Positions 25,609 to 57,900 of a stretch of DNA of 64,000 bases are shown here, piece after piece. Source of the stretch: Siphonodentalium dalli. Lineage: Eukaryota > Mollusca > Scaphopoda > Gadilida > Siphonodentaliidae. The stretch lies in assembly GCA_032622095.1 (NCBI GenBank), contig CP136066.1, forward strand, positions 4,239,784 through 4,303,783, in the 5' to 3' direction. A program made the translations under genes and the position numbers. The notes beneath the pieces are model-generated. The model made no database searches and had not been told where the DNA came from. It saw only the letters and a list, made by a program, of their open reading frames with translations. Every line of letters starts with the position of its first letter. Within the stretch, counting starts at the first letter, position 1.

Positions 25609-25847
25609 TCGGCTGAAATGGTGCGCGCGCAAATTTCGCCTGCTTTTAATAGTCAAACGGGATGAAATTTCTAAATATCGATTCTCTTTGTTGAATCATT
25701 TATGAATGCCGGAGAATTTTATTCTCACAACGGAACCTGTTTCTCGCAACACGATGTACGAAATATCTAGTATTGAATGGAAATAACTAATTTGAACATC
25801 GCATTGGGCCGCCTTGACTTTACTATGAGGGAACTGGCTTTCGCGCT

Positions 25848-25880
25848 GGCCTCGTGGCCTAATGGATAAGGCGTCTGACT
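25848..25880 (+). pseudogene. tRNA-Arg(TCG), unit 39, 5' part, split by insertion
   Basis: Linear tRNA positions 1-33: acceptor 5' strand, D arm, 5' anticodon stem and the first two loop bases. The retroelement begins immediately before the anticodon. Two extra bases (GC) lie just upstream. The A box remains but the B box is now more than 2 kb away. Confidence 0.95.
25870..25880 (+). repeat. target-site duplication, left copy
   Basis: GGCGTCTGACT, tRNA positions 23-33, repeated exactly at 28035-28045. Two preceding A could extend it to 13 bp but merge with the poly(A) on the right. Confidence 0.95.
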
Positions 25881-26031
25881 GGAACTTCCGGTTGGGTTGT
25901 TGATGACGGAGGTCGTGTTTATTTGTGTCCAATGTAATCTACGTTAATTGTGTGAATTTAATGTGCATCCGTTGCTAAATTGTGGTTGTGATATTTGGTT
26001 AGTTTATTCTGAATGTTAATGAATAGAAGAA

Positions 26032-27171
26032 ATGGAATTATGTGCTGATATTCTGGCCAAAAGTGTGAAATTATTGATAAGTGGAACGGTCGTACGTGAC
26101 CATGGATCTGTGTTAAGGTTAATCAGCCATTTTATTGATCTCAATGGGATTACAGCTGTGTGTCGCGATAGCCAGCCGGGTTTGTGGACAGTGGTGTTCG
26201 CGGACCATGACGCTGCATTGGGTGTTGTTAGACAATCGCCATTCTCCACGGGTGATTATTCGCTTTACTTCTGCGACGAGGGTTCGGCTATCTGCACTAT
26301 AAAAGTACATCGATTGCCCTACTTTATATCGGCAGCTGAATTGGCTTCGTTATGTGCGGATTTTGGGACAGTGATTGAACATCGGTATTTAGGTACTGTG
26401 TATGAAGGCGTACTAATTCATGACGGCGTGCGTGAGTTAGTGATCCGAGTGGATAACGGAAAGACAGTGCCTTACGCATTGGACTATGGGACAGGACAGG
26501 CAATTATTACCATGCAGGGGCGCCCACAGGTGTGCGTGTGCTGTCTGTCGCCTCAGCATAAAATTAACACTTGCCCTATTAGGCTGATGTCAGCTAACCG
26601 TGGTGTTATATGCAAATCGACGCAGACGACTGACGATACTATAATGTTAACCGCGTCCTCCCAGACGACTCGTGATACTACGATGGTAACCGCGTCCTCT
26701 CAGACGACTGGTGAATGTACTACGGCGGCTGCCTCCACCCAGACGGACCCCACCGTGGTACCTCTGCCACAGAAACCCACAGATATGGATCAGAAATCAG
26801 ATGACATAGGGACAGTTGTAGGTGATCAGACCGGGAAAACTGGTGAAGATTCTTCTGCTGGAGACAAATTTTATTTGACTCCGTCCACTGCTAGAGTGGA
26901 CAGGTCTCATTTGGATACTATTCCAAAAAGCTATAGGTCTAGTGCATATTACGACTCAGAAACGCAAAAGATTCCAATGAGTTCTTTATTGACATTAGAT
27001 AAAAGGCATTCCAATGAAGATATGAATAAACTGTATGCGTTGTATCTGGATGCTGTAAATATAGGGTATCGTGGAGAGAAATTGGAAAAGAGAGCAATTT
27101 TGTATATGCACTGGTATGAACGGCAACCAGGAGTGAAAATGATTGATCCAGATGACATTCAAAATGGTTAA
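26032..27171 (+). CDS. ORF1-type zinc-knuckle protein of the retroelement
   Basis: The protein has 379 residues and an intact frame, starting at the first ATG after the leader. Residues about 88-165 look like the RNA-binding region of LINE ORF1 proteins. They lead into one CCHC knuckle of the form CX2CX4HX4C (C168, C171, H176, C181), preceded by the family-typical Gly-Arg-Pro before the first Cys. After the knuckle come near-repeats of about 14 residues built on Ser-Gln-Thr-Thr (about 195-240). A polar, charged C-terminal part follows, rich in Asp, Lys and Tyr. Such proteins bind and chaperone the element RNA. No catalytic domain is present. Host genes annotated as ZCCHC3-like often derive from this family. 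Confidence 0.85.
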   Translation: MELCADILAKSVKLLISGTVVRDHGSVLRLISHFIDLNGITAVCRDSQPGLWTVVFADHDAALGVVRQSPFSTGDYSLYFCDEGSAICTIKVHRLPYFISAAELASLCADFGTVIEHRYLGTVYEGVLIHDGVRELVIRVDNGKTVPYALDYGTGQAIITMQGRPQVCVCCLSPQHKINTCPIRLMSANRGVICKSTQTTDDTIMLTASSQTTRDTTMVTASSQTTGECTTAAASTQTDPTVVPLPQKPTDMDQKSDDIGTVVGDQTGKTGEDSSAGDKFYLTPSTARVDRSHLDTIPKSYRSSAYYDSETQKIPMSSLLTLDKRHSNEDMNKLYALYLDAVNIGYRGEKLEKRAILYMHWYERQPGVKMIDPDDIQNG

Positions 27172-27332
27172 TGATAGGACTGGAATTTGTGATGTAATAA
27201 TTTTAATGACCCTGCTATGACAATCGATCCAAAAGAGAGATTTGTAACATCAACCATGAATACATAGTATATGTATAATACGGTATCGAACTTAGCATTT
27301 TGTCCAACGACTTTCGAGCAAGATAGTGTCTA

Positions 27333-27357
27333 AATATATATATATATATATATATAT
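27333..27357. repeat. (TA)n microsatellite in the element's 3' region
   Basis: An uninterrupted TA run inside the 3' non-coding part, followed by ATT-rich low-complexity sequence to about 27430. Confidence 0.9.
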
Positions 27358-27956
27358 TACCCATAAATACATTATTAATATTATTATGAATTTATTTATT
27401 TAAATTATTATTATTATTATTTTATTTTTTTTATACAATTTAAATAACCTATACTATTATTAGCATCACTGCCGAATTATATTATTTTTCCTCTTTAGTT
27501 TCCAATATTAAACATACTGAACAGTTATCTTCCAAAATTATGTTCACTAATACTTACCGCGCTCCAATGTTAAGTGTTCTCATGCTCATTGCAATCATCA
27601 GAATTATACTTACCTTCAACATTATTATCTTTCTGTGATGCTCCTCTCCTGTGTGTCTTGATCTCCACTTCTCTTGAATTCAGCTCTTTCTTTCTATTCC
27701 TCTGACTTGTCCTATTTCATTTTTCTCTAGCTACAATGATCACCTTATCTGTGGTGTTCTTTTCTATAATGGCTCCACTTCTACTAGTTATCCTTCTCTT
27801 TGCTTTAAGTTCGTTTTATCTTCCTATTTTCCATGAATTTTTGTAATTTTGAAATTTTGTAATGTTTTTCATTTGAATAAAGTTACATCGTTTCGACAGT
27901 GATGAACCGGTTTTGTATACCCGTAGACCACGAAATGCGTAATACACCAGGACTGG

Positions 27957-28003
27957 CTCAGGTTCTGGGTTGTGGTCCCGTGGGCTCGAAAACCAGAACT
28001 GAG
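27957..28003 (+). other. 3' stem-loop of the retroelement
   Basis: CTCAG-G-TTCTGG (27957-27968) pairs with CCAGAACTGAG (27993-28003) with one bulged G, closing a 24-base loop ten bases before the A tail. LINE 3' hairpins can be the recognition site for the reverse transcriptase, so this may be how a partner LINE recognises this RNA. Confidence 0.6.
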
Positions 28004-28034
28004 TCGATTTTACAAAAAAAAAAAAAAAAAAAAA

Positions 28035-28085
28035 GGCGTCTGACTTCGAATCAGAAGATTGCGAGTTCGAGTCTCGTCGGGGTCG
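28035..28085 (+). pseudogene. tRNA-Arg(TCG), unit 39, 3' part after the insertion
   Basis: It begins with the right copy of the target duplication (28035-28045) and continues through anticodon, T arm and discriminator. Without the acceptor 5' strand and most of the A box it cannot make a tRNA. Confidence 0.95.
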
Positions 28086-28361
28086 ATTAATTTTTATAAC
28101 ATTTTTATGTTTCCAAATGGTCAAGTTTGGTGTCACCATCGGCTACGGGTTTTACATGCGCATATTGAGTGTTAATCGGCGCCATTTTCGAAGTTAGCGC
28201 ATGTTGGGTATCAAATGACAGTCAAGACCATATTGGGTTAATGGAAATGTGTCCAGGTTCAAAATCAAGCGCACACTTCGTTATATAAGCTGAGGACGGA
28301 CACATTGTGGTCTATTGGAAATATAAAAACAAACAAAAATATGTATAAAAATTTTCTCCAC

Positions 28362-33867: not shown

Positions 33868-34230
33868 ACTGTAAACCTATGTGTTAAAAATCTTAACACA
33901 AAAATTGTAACAGATAATAAACGCGTCAATCTGTTCAAAGTCAGTACTCCAGTGTTAAAGAAGTTAACACTAAAGTTAAATCAATTCACACGTAAATGTG
34001 TTATACTTAAATTAACACTAGTGTTCATATTGTGAACACATGTGTTAAAACAATGAACACCAGTGTTTAATTTTGCACACATAATCGCGTTAAAGCTAAG
34101 CTAACACTGGTGTTCAGATTGTTAACACAAGTGTTCAGAATATTTGAACGCATACACATGTTACGAACACATGTAACAGATATTGCACACATTTACGCGT
34201 TCAAATCAAATTTTTTGAACACATGTGTTA
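33868..34230. repeat. TGTGTTAA-rich degenerate repeat block
   Basis: Many variants of TGTGTTAAnnnnnTTAACAC and AACACATGTGTT in both orientations at irregular spacing. No reading frame is evident. It directly abuts the broken tRNA-Tyr; no terminal repeat or target duplication was found to prove it is an insertion. Confidence 0.7.
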
Positions 34231-34390
34231 AAATCACACAACACCAATGTTAAGTTGGACAACGCACCAATGTTAAGTTGGACAACGCCAATGTTATCTG
34301 GGACCACATAAAATCACACCACACCAATGTTAAGTTGGACAATGCACCAATGTTAAGTTGGACAACGCCAATGTTATCTGGGACCACATA
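34231..34390. repeat. two tandem 80-bp copies
   Basis: Copies 34231-34310 and 34311-34390 differ at few positions. Inside each, the segment CACCAATGTTAAGTTGGACAA occurs twice in part, giving a nested repeat. Confidence 0.9.
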
Positions 34391-39933: not shown

Positions 39934-42900
39934 CTGTAAAATAATTTAGGAATATGCTAACAAAAAAGTTAAAATTATTGTGTCAATAGTAAATTTAATT
40001 TATCTCATCAGAACTCAGTAGCCTGGTAACTCATGTTATAGACTAGTCGTTGAACCCAAAATAGTGGGCCTACCTGGAAGAAAAATGTATAGAAGCGAAT
40101 TTGGTATCAAAATAAGCGAGAAAGTCTCTGGAAGAACATATCGAAAATCAGCTTTGAGCATTTTTTGTAATCCAAGATGGCCGCCATTTCTCCCGATTGT
40201 ACCCCAAGTCTACGTTTTTGGCCTTTGTGGCAAAATTATTCAACCAATCGTTACAAAACAACTTCGATCGTCTTCCTGATAGTTTTCCGCATAATTGTGA
40301 CTTAATTGAGTGAACCTGAATCCAAAACGGCCACCACAAAATGGCCACTATTTTAGATTTTTACTTAAAAATTACAGGTTTTTTTTTACCTAAAGCTAGA
40401 ATTTCCCATGAAAATATGGATTAATAATCACGCAACTGTTTAGTCATCCATCTGCTGTGACTGTGAAATATCTAGGTCAAGGAAGAAACAAAATGGCCAC
40501 CAACCCCAACTTCCCCCATTTCGCTTAAATTTTGAGATATTCAGTTATATGGTCATAATGATACTTAATAGTGGCATATATTGCTATTAAACAGTCATGT
40601 AGTATACCAAACCTTATATATGTAATAATGACCCAATTTAGTTGGCCACAATCCAAAATGGCCCACATAACATATTATTTATTTGAAAATTGCTATTTTT
40701 TCAACGGAAATTTAAATCAAGTTATAATTTCCCATGGTAATATTGATTAATGTGCCAGAAACGTTTCAGTAATCCATCTAATGTGTCTTGTGTGGTGTCC
40801 AGGGCCATCCTATTGATCTCCAGGGCCATACTGGGGGTGCCCTGGGTTATCATATGGGTGTCGAGGGCCATCCTATGTGTGTCCAGGTCCATACTGTGGG
40901 TGTTCCAAGCCACACTATGGGTGTCCCGTGTGTGTCCAAGGCCATCAGATGGGTGTCCATGACCATCCAATTGGTGTCCAGGGTCATATACTGTGGGTGT
41001 ACCAAGCCACACGATGGGTGTCCTGTGGGTGTCCAGGACCATACTGTTATGTCCAGGGCCACCAGGTGGGTGTCCATAATCATCATAAGGGTGTCCAGAG
41101 CCATCCTATTGGTGTCCAGGGTCATAATGTGATGTAGGTATGGAAGGGGGTGTCCCCGTCCCATTAGGAGGGGGTCTGGGGGACATTGAGAGTGAATCTA
41201 GGGCTCTCACTCACTATTTGAATCTTTACTAATGGCACTATATATTTTGTCCCCGGATTCCTTTATTAGAAATACACATGTTAAACACATTTAAATAATT
41301 TAAAACAAGCGGTAGCATCATAGATGCTGGGTCGAGTTTTAGGTGGCATACAGCAAGTTTGGTTAATATTTGTTTGAGTTATCGCACTAACGAGCTCAAA
41401 ATTCGCAAAAATGAAATAATTAGCGGTCATAGCTCCGCCCCTTATAATCGGACCGGCTCGGTTTTCGAACTCGATGAAGATATTCTTGTGAAAATGTCAT
41501 ACAGCAAATTTCGAACAAATCGGTTAATATTTGTTTGAGTTATCGCGCTAACGAGCTCAAAATTCGCAAAAATGATTTAATTAGCGGCCATAGCTCCGCC
41601 CCCTATAATCAGACCGAACGGATTTTATGTATGCAAGGAGCGGTCATAGATATAAACTCACACAACAAAATGTTTTAAGATCCGTCAATAAACTTCAGAG
41701 TTATAGGTGATTATGGCGCCCCGCCCGTCCGCCAACCGTCTCTCGCCAAACCATAAGTCTCGTTTTTTTAAATAAAACTCGACTAAAAATAATCGCCGCT
41801 TATAAAAACATAAATTAAGTTTATTAATATCAGTTTCCGGAAATTACCGAAACTTAGGCCAGATCAAATAAGTAGTTCGTTTCTCAGACACTTTTTTTTC
41901 AAAATGAGGAGGGAGGCAGATATTTATTTTTATTATTTATGGCCAAATTTAACCGTGAGGGAGGTAAGTTTTTTATTTTATTTCTCTCTGCTACCATTGT
42001 ACCACAGTGTTAGTGTTTTATACACGTATTGATCTCATCCTGTCTAAGTCTGCCTTATACAATGATAGAGCCCCATTCTCAATAATTCAGCCTAAAACAC
42101 TTCTGAAATAGATTGTCTTCTATATTGTCTGTCCTCCAACAGATAAGATGCAGTAATTTTTCTTCTCCCACAAGACTATTTTCTGCATGGATACCAGTGT
42201 GTGAGGAATTAAAAACTACATATATATATTCCTGAGATTGGGCTGTGAATGGACCTCATCTGCAACCACATAATGGGCATATGTTTTACACTTATGGTTG
42301 CTTGAAGTACACATAATATCTGGTGCATATTGAGTGATGTAGATGTGTTTTACATGCCAATAACATAGAGGGGAAAAAATTGGAAAATTGTTTTTTTCAA
42401 AAACAAAATTTGTTTCAAAAAACATTTTGACGAGGGATTTCATTTTTTATTTATTTATGATAGAATCGGAATAAAAAGCACTGAGGCGCACCTTTTTTCG
42501 GGACGCGGCGGTGTCTGAGAAACGAACTACTTATTTGATCTTAATTAATAGCAATATCACCATCATTGACCGCCCACTTCTAATCGTACATTTTGAGTAC
42601 TATAACATACAACGGAAATAGAATTTTAACTACAATTACCTATGAATTATGGATGTCATATTTAGCAAAATGACCAATCAGGGAAATATTGATGATTTGT
42701 TTACCTCTTTCATCTCGACAATCGATGACATGGACTTTGACACCTTTTGCCCACGATCGTATTGGACCTCACGTTCCACATACTTCAATACATCAGATAA
42801 GTTTAAATCCGAGTCCTGAAAAAAAGGTGTGTATTCAATTTGAGAACAAAGTCAACCAAGATTGTCACATTTAAAGGGACATACCGTGATACGGGCTTTA

Positions 42901-54900: not shown

Positions 54901-57900
54901 AACACAAATATTCGGAGTTCCCCAGGGGCGGCGAAAGCTGTCAAAGTGGGGGGGGGGGGGGGGTCACAAATATTGGTATAAGTTGAATAGGTGGGGGTCA
55001 CCAATTTGTTAGACAGTTGAATACATTTGAGTATGTATTTCACAATTGTCTTTGTAACATGGTACATGTGTATGCCAAAATTTTAATATCTAGAACTGTA
55101 TAGAAGAATGATAAGCATGCACAGACAGCATGGGACCTTTTGCAGCTGACTATCTTGTGCATGCATCGACAACATCGTATATTTGGTTGTGGTTGATCAT
55201 CATTGGTTTATCAAAGCACCATTGAAGTATGTTTAGCATTTTAGAATTAACAAGCAGTCGCAGACGACGGTATCCCCCGCCGAAATTGTGCAAGTGCATT
55301 ATTAATAATGTTTGCGTTCTCAGTATGTGCTAAATAAGAGGTGGGATTTTGTCAAAAAGCCAGGCTTGCGAATTCATTTTAGGTACTGGTCATGTGAACT
55401 CATATACCAAAAATCTTTGAAATCAGTTGACATTTGTGGAAATGAGCCCTGTGACGTCGTCCATTTGCACACAAAAAAATAAACAAAGTCCAATAAGTCC
55501 GCTTAAAATATCCGGCCGGACCTGGTTTGCGAACTCGTTCTAGATACTGGTCATGTGAACTCATATACCAAAAAACTTTGAAATCCGTGGACATTTGTGT
55601 AAATGAGCCCTGTGACGTCGTCCATTTGCACACAAAAAAATAAACAAAGTCCAATAACTCCGCTTAAAATATCCGGCCGGACGTGGTTTACGAACTCGTT
55701 CTAGATACTGGTCATGTGAACTCATATACCAAAAATCTTTGAAATCCGTGGACATTTGTGGAAATGAGCCCTGTGACGTCGTCCATTTGCACACAAAAAA
55801 ATAAACAAAGTCCAATAACTCCGCTTAAAATATCCGGCCGGACCTGGTTTGCGAACTCGTTCTAGATACTGGTCATGTGAACTCATATACCAAAAAACTT
55901 TGAAATCCGTTGACATTTGTGGAAATGAGCCCTGTGACGTCGTCTATTTGCACACAAAAAAATAAACAAAGTCCAATAACTCTGCTTAAAATAACCGGCC
56001 GGACCTGGTTTGCGAACTCGTTCTAGATACTGGTCAAGTGAACTCATATACCAAATATCTTTGAAATCCGTTGACATTTGTGGGAATGAGCCCTGTGACG
56101 TCGTCTATTTGCTATTTGGTAAATTCGACAAAAATAATAAACAAAGTCCAATAACTCCAGTAAAAATATCCGACCGGACCTGGCTTACTAACTTATTCTA
56201 GGTAATGGTCAGGTGAACTCAAATACCATAAATCTTTGAAATCCGTTGACATTTGTTCAAGTTATGACTCTTACAAATTCGGGACGGACGGACGGACGGA
56301 CGGACGGAACCCATTACTATATCCCCCGCAAATTTTCAATTTGGCGTGGGATAATAAGTCGAAAATGAGGCATAACTTTAACAAAATAATTCGGACCGAA
56401 CCCAAATTTTCAGCATGCTGAGAGCCTGAGATGTTCTTGCAAGAAGATTGTCTACCACAAATTATTGAAATTGGTTCATATTTGATAAAGTTATCAAGTC
56501 TGACGGACGGACGGACAAACAGACTGAGCAACTCGGATGGACGGACAGACGGACGCAGTCAATCCAGTTTACTACTTTGGTAGTGGGGGTATAATTAAAT
56601 TATTCTTTCATTGTGGATGTCCCTCATGGTAGGATTTGTCCAACTGGGCTGGATGTTATGATGACCACCATCTATTGTTGGGTAGTGATTGATAAGGGAT
56701 TATCACTGGAGTGACCCAGATTTTTACCCTGGCCAACCTACCCTACTAGTAAGTATCCTTGGCTGATTGCTTCCAATAAGATTGACATGACCCACATGCT
56801 TAACTCACCATTTGCCTTGCCATGTCAGAATCTGGCTAGCATTTACAATTATATTATGTAGGCAACTCATAAATATGGTTCCTTTTCAATACATTCCTCC
56901 GATATTTTCATATTTTGTTCTTGTTCATCATCTTTGGACTATTGAGCAAATGTTACTATTTTTTCTATTGATGTTTGGAGATTGGGTATACTGGGTTACA
57001 GCGCAAGAGATTGCCTTTCTAAATCTTGAATTAAAGTTAAATTTAAAATTTCAAAAGCAATCCAGCATGATTTATACTGCTGGAATAGTTAATAAATTAT
57101 GTAGGTAACACAGTAGGTTTATATTTATGCTCCAAAAAATGACCAGAACACTGGATTTTACACCCTCAATATTTTGAAACATTTGGCTTCCGGAAGACAC
57201 ATAGAACTTTGTTTGTTGGGCAAAGTTGGCATACTAATAATAGGGTCGGTCGGGTAACCCTAAACACAGGTATTTTTTTGTTTGGCCTAACAATGACCAG
57301 ATTTCTTGCAGAGAATCAGGGTTTTTGTCTATATTATCTGGAAAGTGCATGGGCTTCTTGTATTTTGTTCGCCCACTGTGGATAAGCTAAAAATATTGGC
57401 AGAAAAGAGACAATTTTCATAACATACTAACCATATGGTTGACTCGGAGGTGTTAAAGATGATGATGAAATTGAATCCACAGCTGGCATGTCTGCAACAC
57501 TCTGCTCCGAAGTGGCCGAACGTTCTTTAACGCCATTGTTTGAGTTTGCCGAGTCTGGCCGGGCCCATACCTGGCCTGCTTCCAGGAATAGGAATATTTC
57601 ACTCCGTAACTCCGACAAAACCTCATCGTCCTCAATGTCCGTCCCGTCGCACTCCAGAACTATTTTGCAGCCATCTGACTTGACCATAAGTTTTTCTGCC
57701 GCTGAAAAAAAAAACAACAGCAACATGAAGCTAGTTTATGTGTTAGCACTTACAAAATTTGGACAGACAAAACTGTTCAGACCAAATAGTTATCAACTTA
57801 GAATCATGCAGTTTGACATCCAATATTTGTCAAATACCTGAGATATTACCTATTATTCGTTTCCGCGTTCCGTATAATACACATTCAGCGTGCCGCCTCA

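Follow-up and report, generated by a model that had tools for sequence, protein, structure and literature searches.

Retroelements that carry only a first open reading frame (HAL1, HeT-A) and LINEs with fixed target sites (Keno, Dewa, R1, R2) are already known. HeT-A belongs to the jockey clade, Keno, Mutsu and Dewa to the Tx1 clade, and LIN15_SM, LIN25_SM and NeSL-1_TV are related to NeSL, of the restriction-like-endonuclease lineage. To our knowledge, HAL1 is not site-specific, HeT-A makes no target duplication, and Dada-tL and its relatives have no poly-A. HAL1 (half-L1) of mammals is described as an ORF1-only, non-autonomous derivative of L1 with several independent origins (PMC5753468). 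HeT-A, at Drosophila telomeres, is described as a gag-only non-LTR element without a reverse transcriptase (RT) that uses repeated landing sites beside RT-bearing partners (PMC5537684). Multicopy RNA-gene targets (U2, 5S rRNA and the tRNA-Leu spacer) are reported for Keno, Mutsu and Dewa, and the Keno endonuclease is given as APE-like (PMC4640811, PMC3706591). LIN15_SM, LIN25_SM and NeSL-1_TV are listed as LINEs specific for tRNA-Arg, tRNA-Glu and tRNA-Pro genes (PMC4640811), and Dada-tL and related DNA transposons as inserting inside tRNA and snRNA genes (PMC3706591).

The locus described here lies in a 64,000-nt stretch of DNA that was analyzed as a whole (the window; C6:4239784-4303783) in a genome of 2.23 Gb in nine contigs, and holds a young, ORF1-only copy of an element without RT. 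HAL1 has several origins; what we found is a single family, diverse, strict in its targets and provided with a C-terminal domain of its own. HeT-A sits at chromosome ends in head-to-tail arrays without target duplication, whereas the present insertions occupy internal RNA genes, with duplications at their tRNA sites and a probable L1-group partner. Keno, Mutsu and Dewa are autonomous and Dewa enters the tRNA-Leu spacer, whereas the site used here lies within many tRNA genes; LIN15_SM, LIN25_SM and NeSL-1_TV possess RT and use one isoacceptor class each, and Dada-tL and its relatives differ in their DDE transposase and 6-7 bp duplications. By analogy, trans-mobilisation by resident site-specific LINEs would be the simplest account, resembling HeT-A and HAL1 in logic and Keno, Dewa and Mutsu in targets. 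The new feature is an ORF1-only family that has persisted for long and is bound to several RNA-gene targets; we found no report of such a family in the open-access literature, an absence that counts only weakly towards novelty.

The interrupted tRNA-Arg(TCG) gene and its element

A 2.13-kb element disrupts a tRNA-Arg(TCG) gene directly 5' of the anticodon. The initial annotation had described an interrupted tRNA-Arg, an 11-bp duplication, a 21-base A tail, one intact zinc-knuckle ORF and the lack of RT, all of which we confirmed in the sequence:

42-33517, no strand assigned: 679-bp units in tandem, tRNA-Arg(TCG) lying on the + strand and tRNA-Tyr(GTA) on the - strand; supported by 92 tRNA genes and their spacing
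25847-25880, + strand: 5' half of tRNA-Arg(TCG), agreeing with the 5' part of intact neighbours
25870-25880, + strand: left copy of the 11-bp target-site duplication, GGCGTCTGACT
25881-25892, + strand: element 5' terminus, GGAACTTCCGGT, common to other ORF1-only lineages and two tRNA-site LINEs
26032-27171, + strand: ORF1, 379 aa
26032-26526, + strand: predicted tandem RRM domains, about residues 1-165
26533-26574, + strand: CCHC zinc knuckle, residues 168-181, C-x2-C-x4-H-x4-C
26896-27168, + strand: predicted C-terminal helical domain, present in the ORF1-only family and absent from the three LINE ORF1s compared
27901-28013, + strand: conserved 3' tail with terminal stem 27963-27968 / 27993-27998, then CTGAGTC
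28014-28034, + strand: A tail of 21 bases
28035-28045, + strand: right copy of the 11-bp target-site duplication, GGCGTCTGACT
28046-28086, + strand: 3' half of tRNA-Arg(TCG), its first bases being the anticodon TCG

Because the 679-bp array unit is repeated, the empty site can be read from adjacent units. The 26-base target string occurs 43 times in the array, including the left flank of the interrupted gene; 34 of the 42 spacings are exactly 679 bp, four are 1358, three are 678-681, and one, at the place holding the element, is 2844. Between 27172 and 28013 there is no ORF2, since none of the three + frames stays free of stops for more than 64 codons, and the window element carries no ORF2 with endonuclease (EN) and RT as an autonomous LINE would. 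The family does show what is expected of non-LTR elements inserted by target-primed reverse transcription, namely poly-A or A-rich 3' ends, target duplications of variable length and variable 5' ends, which bears out the earlier claim about its ends. Past the tRNA array, the window contains further tandem repeats at 34229-34390, 40794-41119 and 55366-56256 (80-bp, about 21/63/97-bp and 161-bp units).

The ORF1 protein is predicted to comprise two RRMs, a zinc knuckle and a C-terminal helical domain. Residues C168, C171 and H176 are invariant across 16 aligned ORF1s, while Pfam gave no match to the window ORF1 and none above cut-off for the six relatives scanned. VIA-align coverage falls mostly on residues 1-86 and barely touches the C-terminal domain, and has no bearing on the novelty of that domain. 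Judged from substitution ratios, ORF1 evolves under purifying selection, with dN/dS values of 0.29, 0.30, 0.38 and 0.40 in the four informative pairs out of 15. Five near-identical pairs gave 0.43-1.05, values that rest on 5 to 12 changes; the remaining pairs comprise the mosaic copy in L011 (0.49), two near saturation (0.16) and three saturated.

One site in many tRNA genes

A whole-genome search with the element (64 match rows) recovered at least eight near-full copies with 97-100% identity along their entire or almost entire length, a lower bound since the best 40 of 105 first-look candidates were scored. The right flank is a tRNA gene in all eight, and the proposal of a tRNA-specific element therefore stands. 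These copies are spread over five different tRNA genes on four contigs: Arg-TCG (the window), Leu-TAA, a Leu-CAA-like gene (two copies), Arg-ACG and Asn-GTT (three copies). The Leu-CAA-like gene is intron-bearing and was read by us as Leu-CAA, but is called Ser-CGA by ARAGORN. Each copy has poly-A and most have their own duplication, and ORF1 is open in seven of the eight, being broken in L008. Diverged subfamilies, with ORF1s 41-82% identical, occur in Arg, Leu, Asn, Thr, Tyr and Glu tRNA genes, the older ones also occupying Leu-TAG, Leu-AAG, Thr-CGT, Tyr-GTA, Glu-CTC and Glu-TTC. A target described as tRNA-Arg was thus correct as far as Arg genes are used and too narrow in that the site is common to six amino-acid classes of tRNA. 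As for the suggestion that a tandem array offers a safe, renewable landing site, the landing sites are indeed repetitive, and tRNA arrays may act as a safe haven for the element. Two copies in L011 are mosaic, their first 739 bp being about 95% identical to the window subfamily and the remainder, with the tail, belonging to another subfamily.

Among 33 ORF1-only tails found by motif in 42 loci, 30 are followed by tRNA sequence (29 placed by script and one by eye); tails in L024, L025 and L026 lie outside tRNA genes. Of the 29 script-placed flanks, 19 begin at linear nt 21-22 of the tRNA, with one or two ambiguous A, four at nt 25-26 and two at nt 16 of tRNA-Tyr, and four stop short at mismatches, three of which (L004, L006, L009) have equivalent first bases by eye. 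In tRNA-Tyr the entry point is shifted upstream by about 6-8 nt relative to the common one, and L019 retains GGATT of tRNA-Glu followed by a deletion. The mapped right flanks thus indicate that, in many tRNAs, the first cut usually falls immediately 3' of the D-loop and adjacent to box A. This is a natural case of a single site, just 3' of the tRNA D-loop, being exploited across many different tRNAs.

The second cut was assessed in 16 insertions whose 5' junctions were compared, with ambiguous A excluded from the duplication lengths. Left junctions were read separately, as the mapping script sometimes picked intact tRNAs or other reference variants. Duplications measure 7 bp in L004, 11 in the window, 12 in L005, L014, L015, L018 and two L027 copies, 14 in L007, 13 in L013 and 14 in L023 (both by eye) and 35 in L016. 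In L002, L003 and L009 they are roughly 160-290 bp, with the left flank ending inside the array spacer, and at the 5' junction of the 5'-truncated L008 no duplication was seen. Long or missing duplications in some copies indicate that the second, top-strand cut is loose.

Resident LINEs as candidate enzyme donors

A tRNA-Glu array harbours an autonomous LINE with ORF1 in a 386-codon frame and ORF2 in two pieces with EN and RT; it starts with GGGACTTCCGGTTG, has poly-A and is flanked by a 12-bp duplication, GGATTCGGCGCT. Over EN and RT, the ORF2 piece of L030 is closest in the PDB to LINE-1 ORF2 chains (best E 2.4e-66), and the piece in L028 matches Pfam zf-RVT and RVT_1 below cut-off. The proposed partner LINE combines an APE endonuclease with an RT of the L1 group, and such LINEs would belong to the Tx1 clade. 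In all four LINE 3' junctions that were read (in Glu-CTC, Arg-ACG, Leu-TAG and Leu-CAA-like genes), the right flank starts at tRNA nt 21-22, and all four sites are used by ORF1-only copies too; for a further LINE, at C1:135.66 Mb, L040 yielded no 3' end. A genome search with a 724-aa ORF2 (best 62 of 25503 candidates) placed matches of at least 43% identity and one 37% fragment in a restricted number of stretches, ORF1-only elements being present in many of them too, and matches of 34% identity or less lay elsewhere or in U1 and U2 regions.

Because the insertion nucleotide is that of the tRNA LINEs, it is most simply explained by their endonuclease, and tRNA-site L1-group LINEs likely supply the enzymes. 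The earlier proposal that the element depends on another LINE gains support from these resident LINEs, which enter the same tRNA nucleotide. We estimate a probability of roughly 0.7 that this is a non-autonomous, protein-coding non-LTR element inserted with the enzymes of resident autonomous L1-group (Tx1-like) LINEs. Under this reading, element RNA would be transcribed from its own promoter and bound by the ORF1 protein through its two predicted RRMs and zinc knuckle, and target-primed reverse transcription would be carried out by the EN and RT of tRNA-site LINEs. The LINE enzyme would cut the bottom strand of the tRNA gene just 3' of the D-loop and the top strand usually 7-14 bp further, the first nick would prime reverse transcription of the poly-A end, and at the 5' end the enzyme would either join the target or jump onto a free Pol III-like RNA.

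Other EN-RT sequences were set aside. The 1035-aa EN-RT ORF at L023:2142-5246 (-), of another LINE type in a tRNA-Glu array spacer, was rejected as a donor because it starts in the spacer, its 3' end differs and it lies on the opposite strand. The EN-RT ORF near a tail in L024 adjoins a stray tail copy, within a longer repeat common with L025 and without a tRNA, and no tie to a tail could be made for the EN-RT fragments in L012.

The 5' terminus GRACTTCCGGT is common to ORF1-only elements and LINEs (two LINEs read), and resembles an ETS/GABP promoter site. In 291 kb of sequence from 42 loci, themselves selected for containing elements, ACTTCCGGT occurs 18 times against 2.2 expected at equal base frequencies; 14 occurrences are ORF1-only 5' ends, two are LINE 5' ends and two lie elsewhere. 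Some 5' ends carry in addition a 430-nt unit with a tRNA-like head, which we take to contain consensus A and B boxes, and a T-run end:

L013:4229-4660, - strand: 430-nt Pol III-like unit
L028:3164-3591, - strand: 430-nt Pol III-like unit

The unit is fused 5' of ORF1-only copies in L006, L013 (twice) and L028 (twice) and of one LINE (L042), one to four times per 5' end of tRNA-site elements. In L013, two units and the element lie by eye within a single 13-bp tRNA-Leu duplication. When the 33 genome matches of the unit were compared with the best 53 of 127 ORF1 rows, the best 32 of 63 ORF2 rows and all 40 tails, 24 proved to be followed on the same strand, within 3.5 kb, by an ORF1-only ORF1, a LINE ORF2 or a tail; because the ORF1 and ORF2 rows were partial, the nine misses may be false. 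The unit in L042 had no Rfam match at E 0.01, and apart from matches of 45 nt at C3:51.2-51.4 Mb no source gene was found. An unassigned unit match is located near the U2 array, at C5:203.4 Mb.

By analogy, these chimeras look like RT switching from element RNA onto free RNAs. Comparable jumping has been reported for L1 and U6 RNA (PMC4476161, PMC13174262). If instead the units were promoter monomers of the element, they would be no proof of a shared enzyme. Outermost units are often 5'-truncated and the units stand in tandem, as do the monomers of mouse L1, whose outermost copies are 5'-truncated. However, the units span from the tRNA-like head with its A and B boxes to the T run, the extent expected of a free Pol III RNA; their 3' ends are mostly complete and their 5' ends variable, and several copies, including that in the window, are without any unit. 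We therefore regard promoter monomers as unlikely, though worth keeping in mind, and template jumps as the better reading.

The 3' tail and the U2-type LINE

At the other end, the last 110-120 nt are conserved across subfamilies (mean column identity 82% in 14 sequences). A 17-mer from the tail has 40 exact genome matches and its reversed control none; an ORF1-only ORF1 lies 0.66-0.85 kb upstream in 35 of the 40 (best 53 + 14 ORF1 rows of 127). An ORF2 match lies within 8 kb upstream of one of the 40 tails (best 32 of 63 ORF2 rows); the LINE concerned terminates before the tail and has a flank of its own. The eight ORF1-only tails compared end in ACTGAGTC (seven) or ACTGCGTC (one), each followed by a few bases and an A-rich end. 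Stray tails with some 3' UTR and without ORF1 occur at L024:1050-1180 (-) and L025:946-1071 (-), in a longer repeat outside tRNA arrays.

The predicted fold of the window tail does not stand out clearly from those of shuffled sequences (z -0.94), and four other pieces range from -1.54 to -3.15. Among tRNA-site tails we found no two-sided compensatory change in the stem and no covariation. The terminal stem differs in sequence between targets, and an ad hoc stem search found its pairing kept in most of eight folded pieces, with weak or alternative stems in U5 and U2; this conservation of pairing between targets is suggestive.

The initial annotation had proposed a search for a full LINE with the same 3' stem-loop, and the outcome was not as expected. 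At the 3' ends read from four tRNA LINEs the tail is missing; these LINEs end in TTTATAATAAAAGAT or similar, then A, so that no 3'-end sharing of the usual LINE-SINE type was seen there. A U2-type LINE in a U1 array, by contrast, has a homologous tail (GATGACCC ... GGGTCC ... stem ... ACTGAGT) with 14 genome matches. The donor evidence is thus split, which is a weak point of our account: the 5' end and the site seem to point to tRNA LINEs and the tail to U2-type LINEs.

U2-type LINEs might therefore give the enzymes, with the ORF1-only protein itself steering the element to tRNA genes. The homologous tail, with its terminal stem and ACTGAGT, would fit such an arrangement, as would the closer relationship of ORF1 to that of the U2-type LINE (hhalign probability 93%, 3e-7) than to those of tRNA LINEs (38%, E 3.4e-4, which is weak). 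HeT-A, for which telomere targeting by Gag is described and the RT source left open, provides a precedent (PMC5537684). The insertion nucleotide, however, is the same as that of resident tRNA LINEs, and the assignable 430-nt chimeras are all on tRNA-site ORF1-only elements and LINEs, which makes this alternative improbable. Enzymes from tRNA-site LINEs remain our preferred reading, and both sets of evidence could be reconciled if the lineage arose from a U2-type LINE and turned afterwards to tRNA LINEs for which poly-A suffices.

Relatives in snRNA and histone genes and the origin of the family

As identified with Rfam, ORF1-only relatives occur in U2 (L031; also L032, which has a U2 leader), U1 (L033, from its right flank alone) and U5 (L034), and by eye at a second U2 place (L044). 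Another, at L045:98-391 (-), lies in histone H4 just inside the coding region; it was placed from its right flank alone, which translates as H4 through its stop. L044 and L045 are 95% identical over 1 kb, so that this subfamily struck at least two different genes. The RRM-knuckle region is kept in the ORF1s compared, a set to which the L045 ORF1 did not belong. In an ORF1 tree rooted on LINEs, with moderate inner supports and long LINE branches, the tRNA lineages group together (97.8/82), U1 is adjacent and U2 and U5 fall outside. The existence of sister lineages at U1, U2, U5 and histone H4 points to target switching.

Several observations concern individual snRNA loci. The copy in L032 (400-760 and 2305-2420) bears the U2 RNA 5' end, within U2-like sequence ending in poly-A (SINEU-like), suggesting that U2 lineages use the U2 promoter. 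At C4:20.82 Mb, L041 with L036 forms an autonomous LINE with a U2 5' leader in a U1 snRNA array, and its 3' end is at the same U1 place (AAAA/GGCGGTGG) as that of the U1 ORF1-only element in L033. Beside the U5 insertion, L034 reads as N from about position 2790 onwards, and beside the U2 insertion all of L037 does. Micro-RNA matches in L044 and L045 were far below gathering scores and were disregarded.

Our reading is of an old family that has retained ORF1 and that, as these relatives suggest, changes its target, perhaps via a change of LINE partner. We tentatively extend this, at somewhat less than even odds, to a single ancient ORF1-only hyperparasite of several site-specific LINEs that moved among tRNA, U1, U2, U5 and histone H4 genes by changing donor. 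If so, the ORF1 protein and tail would be constant and the target borrowed, and target specificity would be modular and separable in nature. The family would offer a natural test of the role of ORF1 protein in trans, of whether a tail or poly-A recruits a foreign RT, and of how target specificity is acquired.

The element could instead be an ordinary recent internal-deletion derivative of one autonomous tRNA LINE, with ORF1 as a passenger. HAL1 arose thus from L1 several times (PMC5753468), and the element and the tRNA LINEs have a common site and a common 5' terminus. However, the window ORF1 is only 26-27% identical, over about 100 aa, to two tRNA LINE ORF1s; the C-terminal domain is missing from three LINE ORF1s, and the relatives include U1, U2 and U5 elements. 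Purifying selection on ORF1 and 3' ends that differ from those of tRNA LINEs also argue against it. The best 40 of 90, 108 of 425 and 62 of 25503 candidates included no ORF2-bearing parent sharing the ORF1 or the tail. A simple deletion copy, the alternative named in the initial annotation, is improbable: the matches listed include no ORF2-bearing relative with this ORF1 or tail, and the family is diverse with its own C-terminal domain.

Chance insertion, or spread solely via array duplication, is already refuted by the flanks, since eight near-identical copies in five tRNA genes on four contigs each have poly-A and a tRNA right flank, even though array duplication is evident for some copies, such as three at C6:4.57-4.60 Mb. 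These three, in a tRNA-Tyr gene at C6:4570532, 4579466 and 4588401 (the region of L014 and L015), are spaced at about 8.9 kb and probably spread by duplication of the tRNA array, not by retrotransposition.
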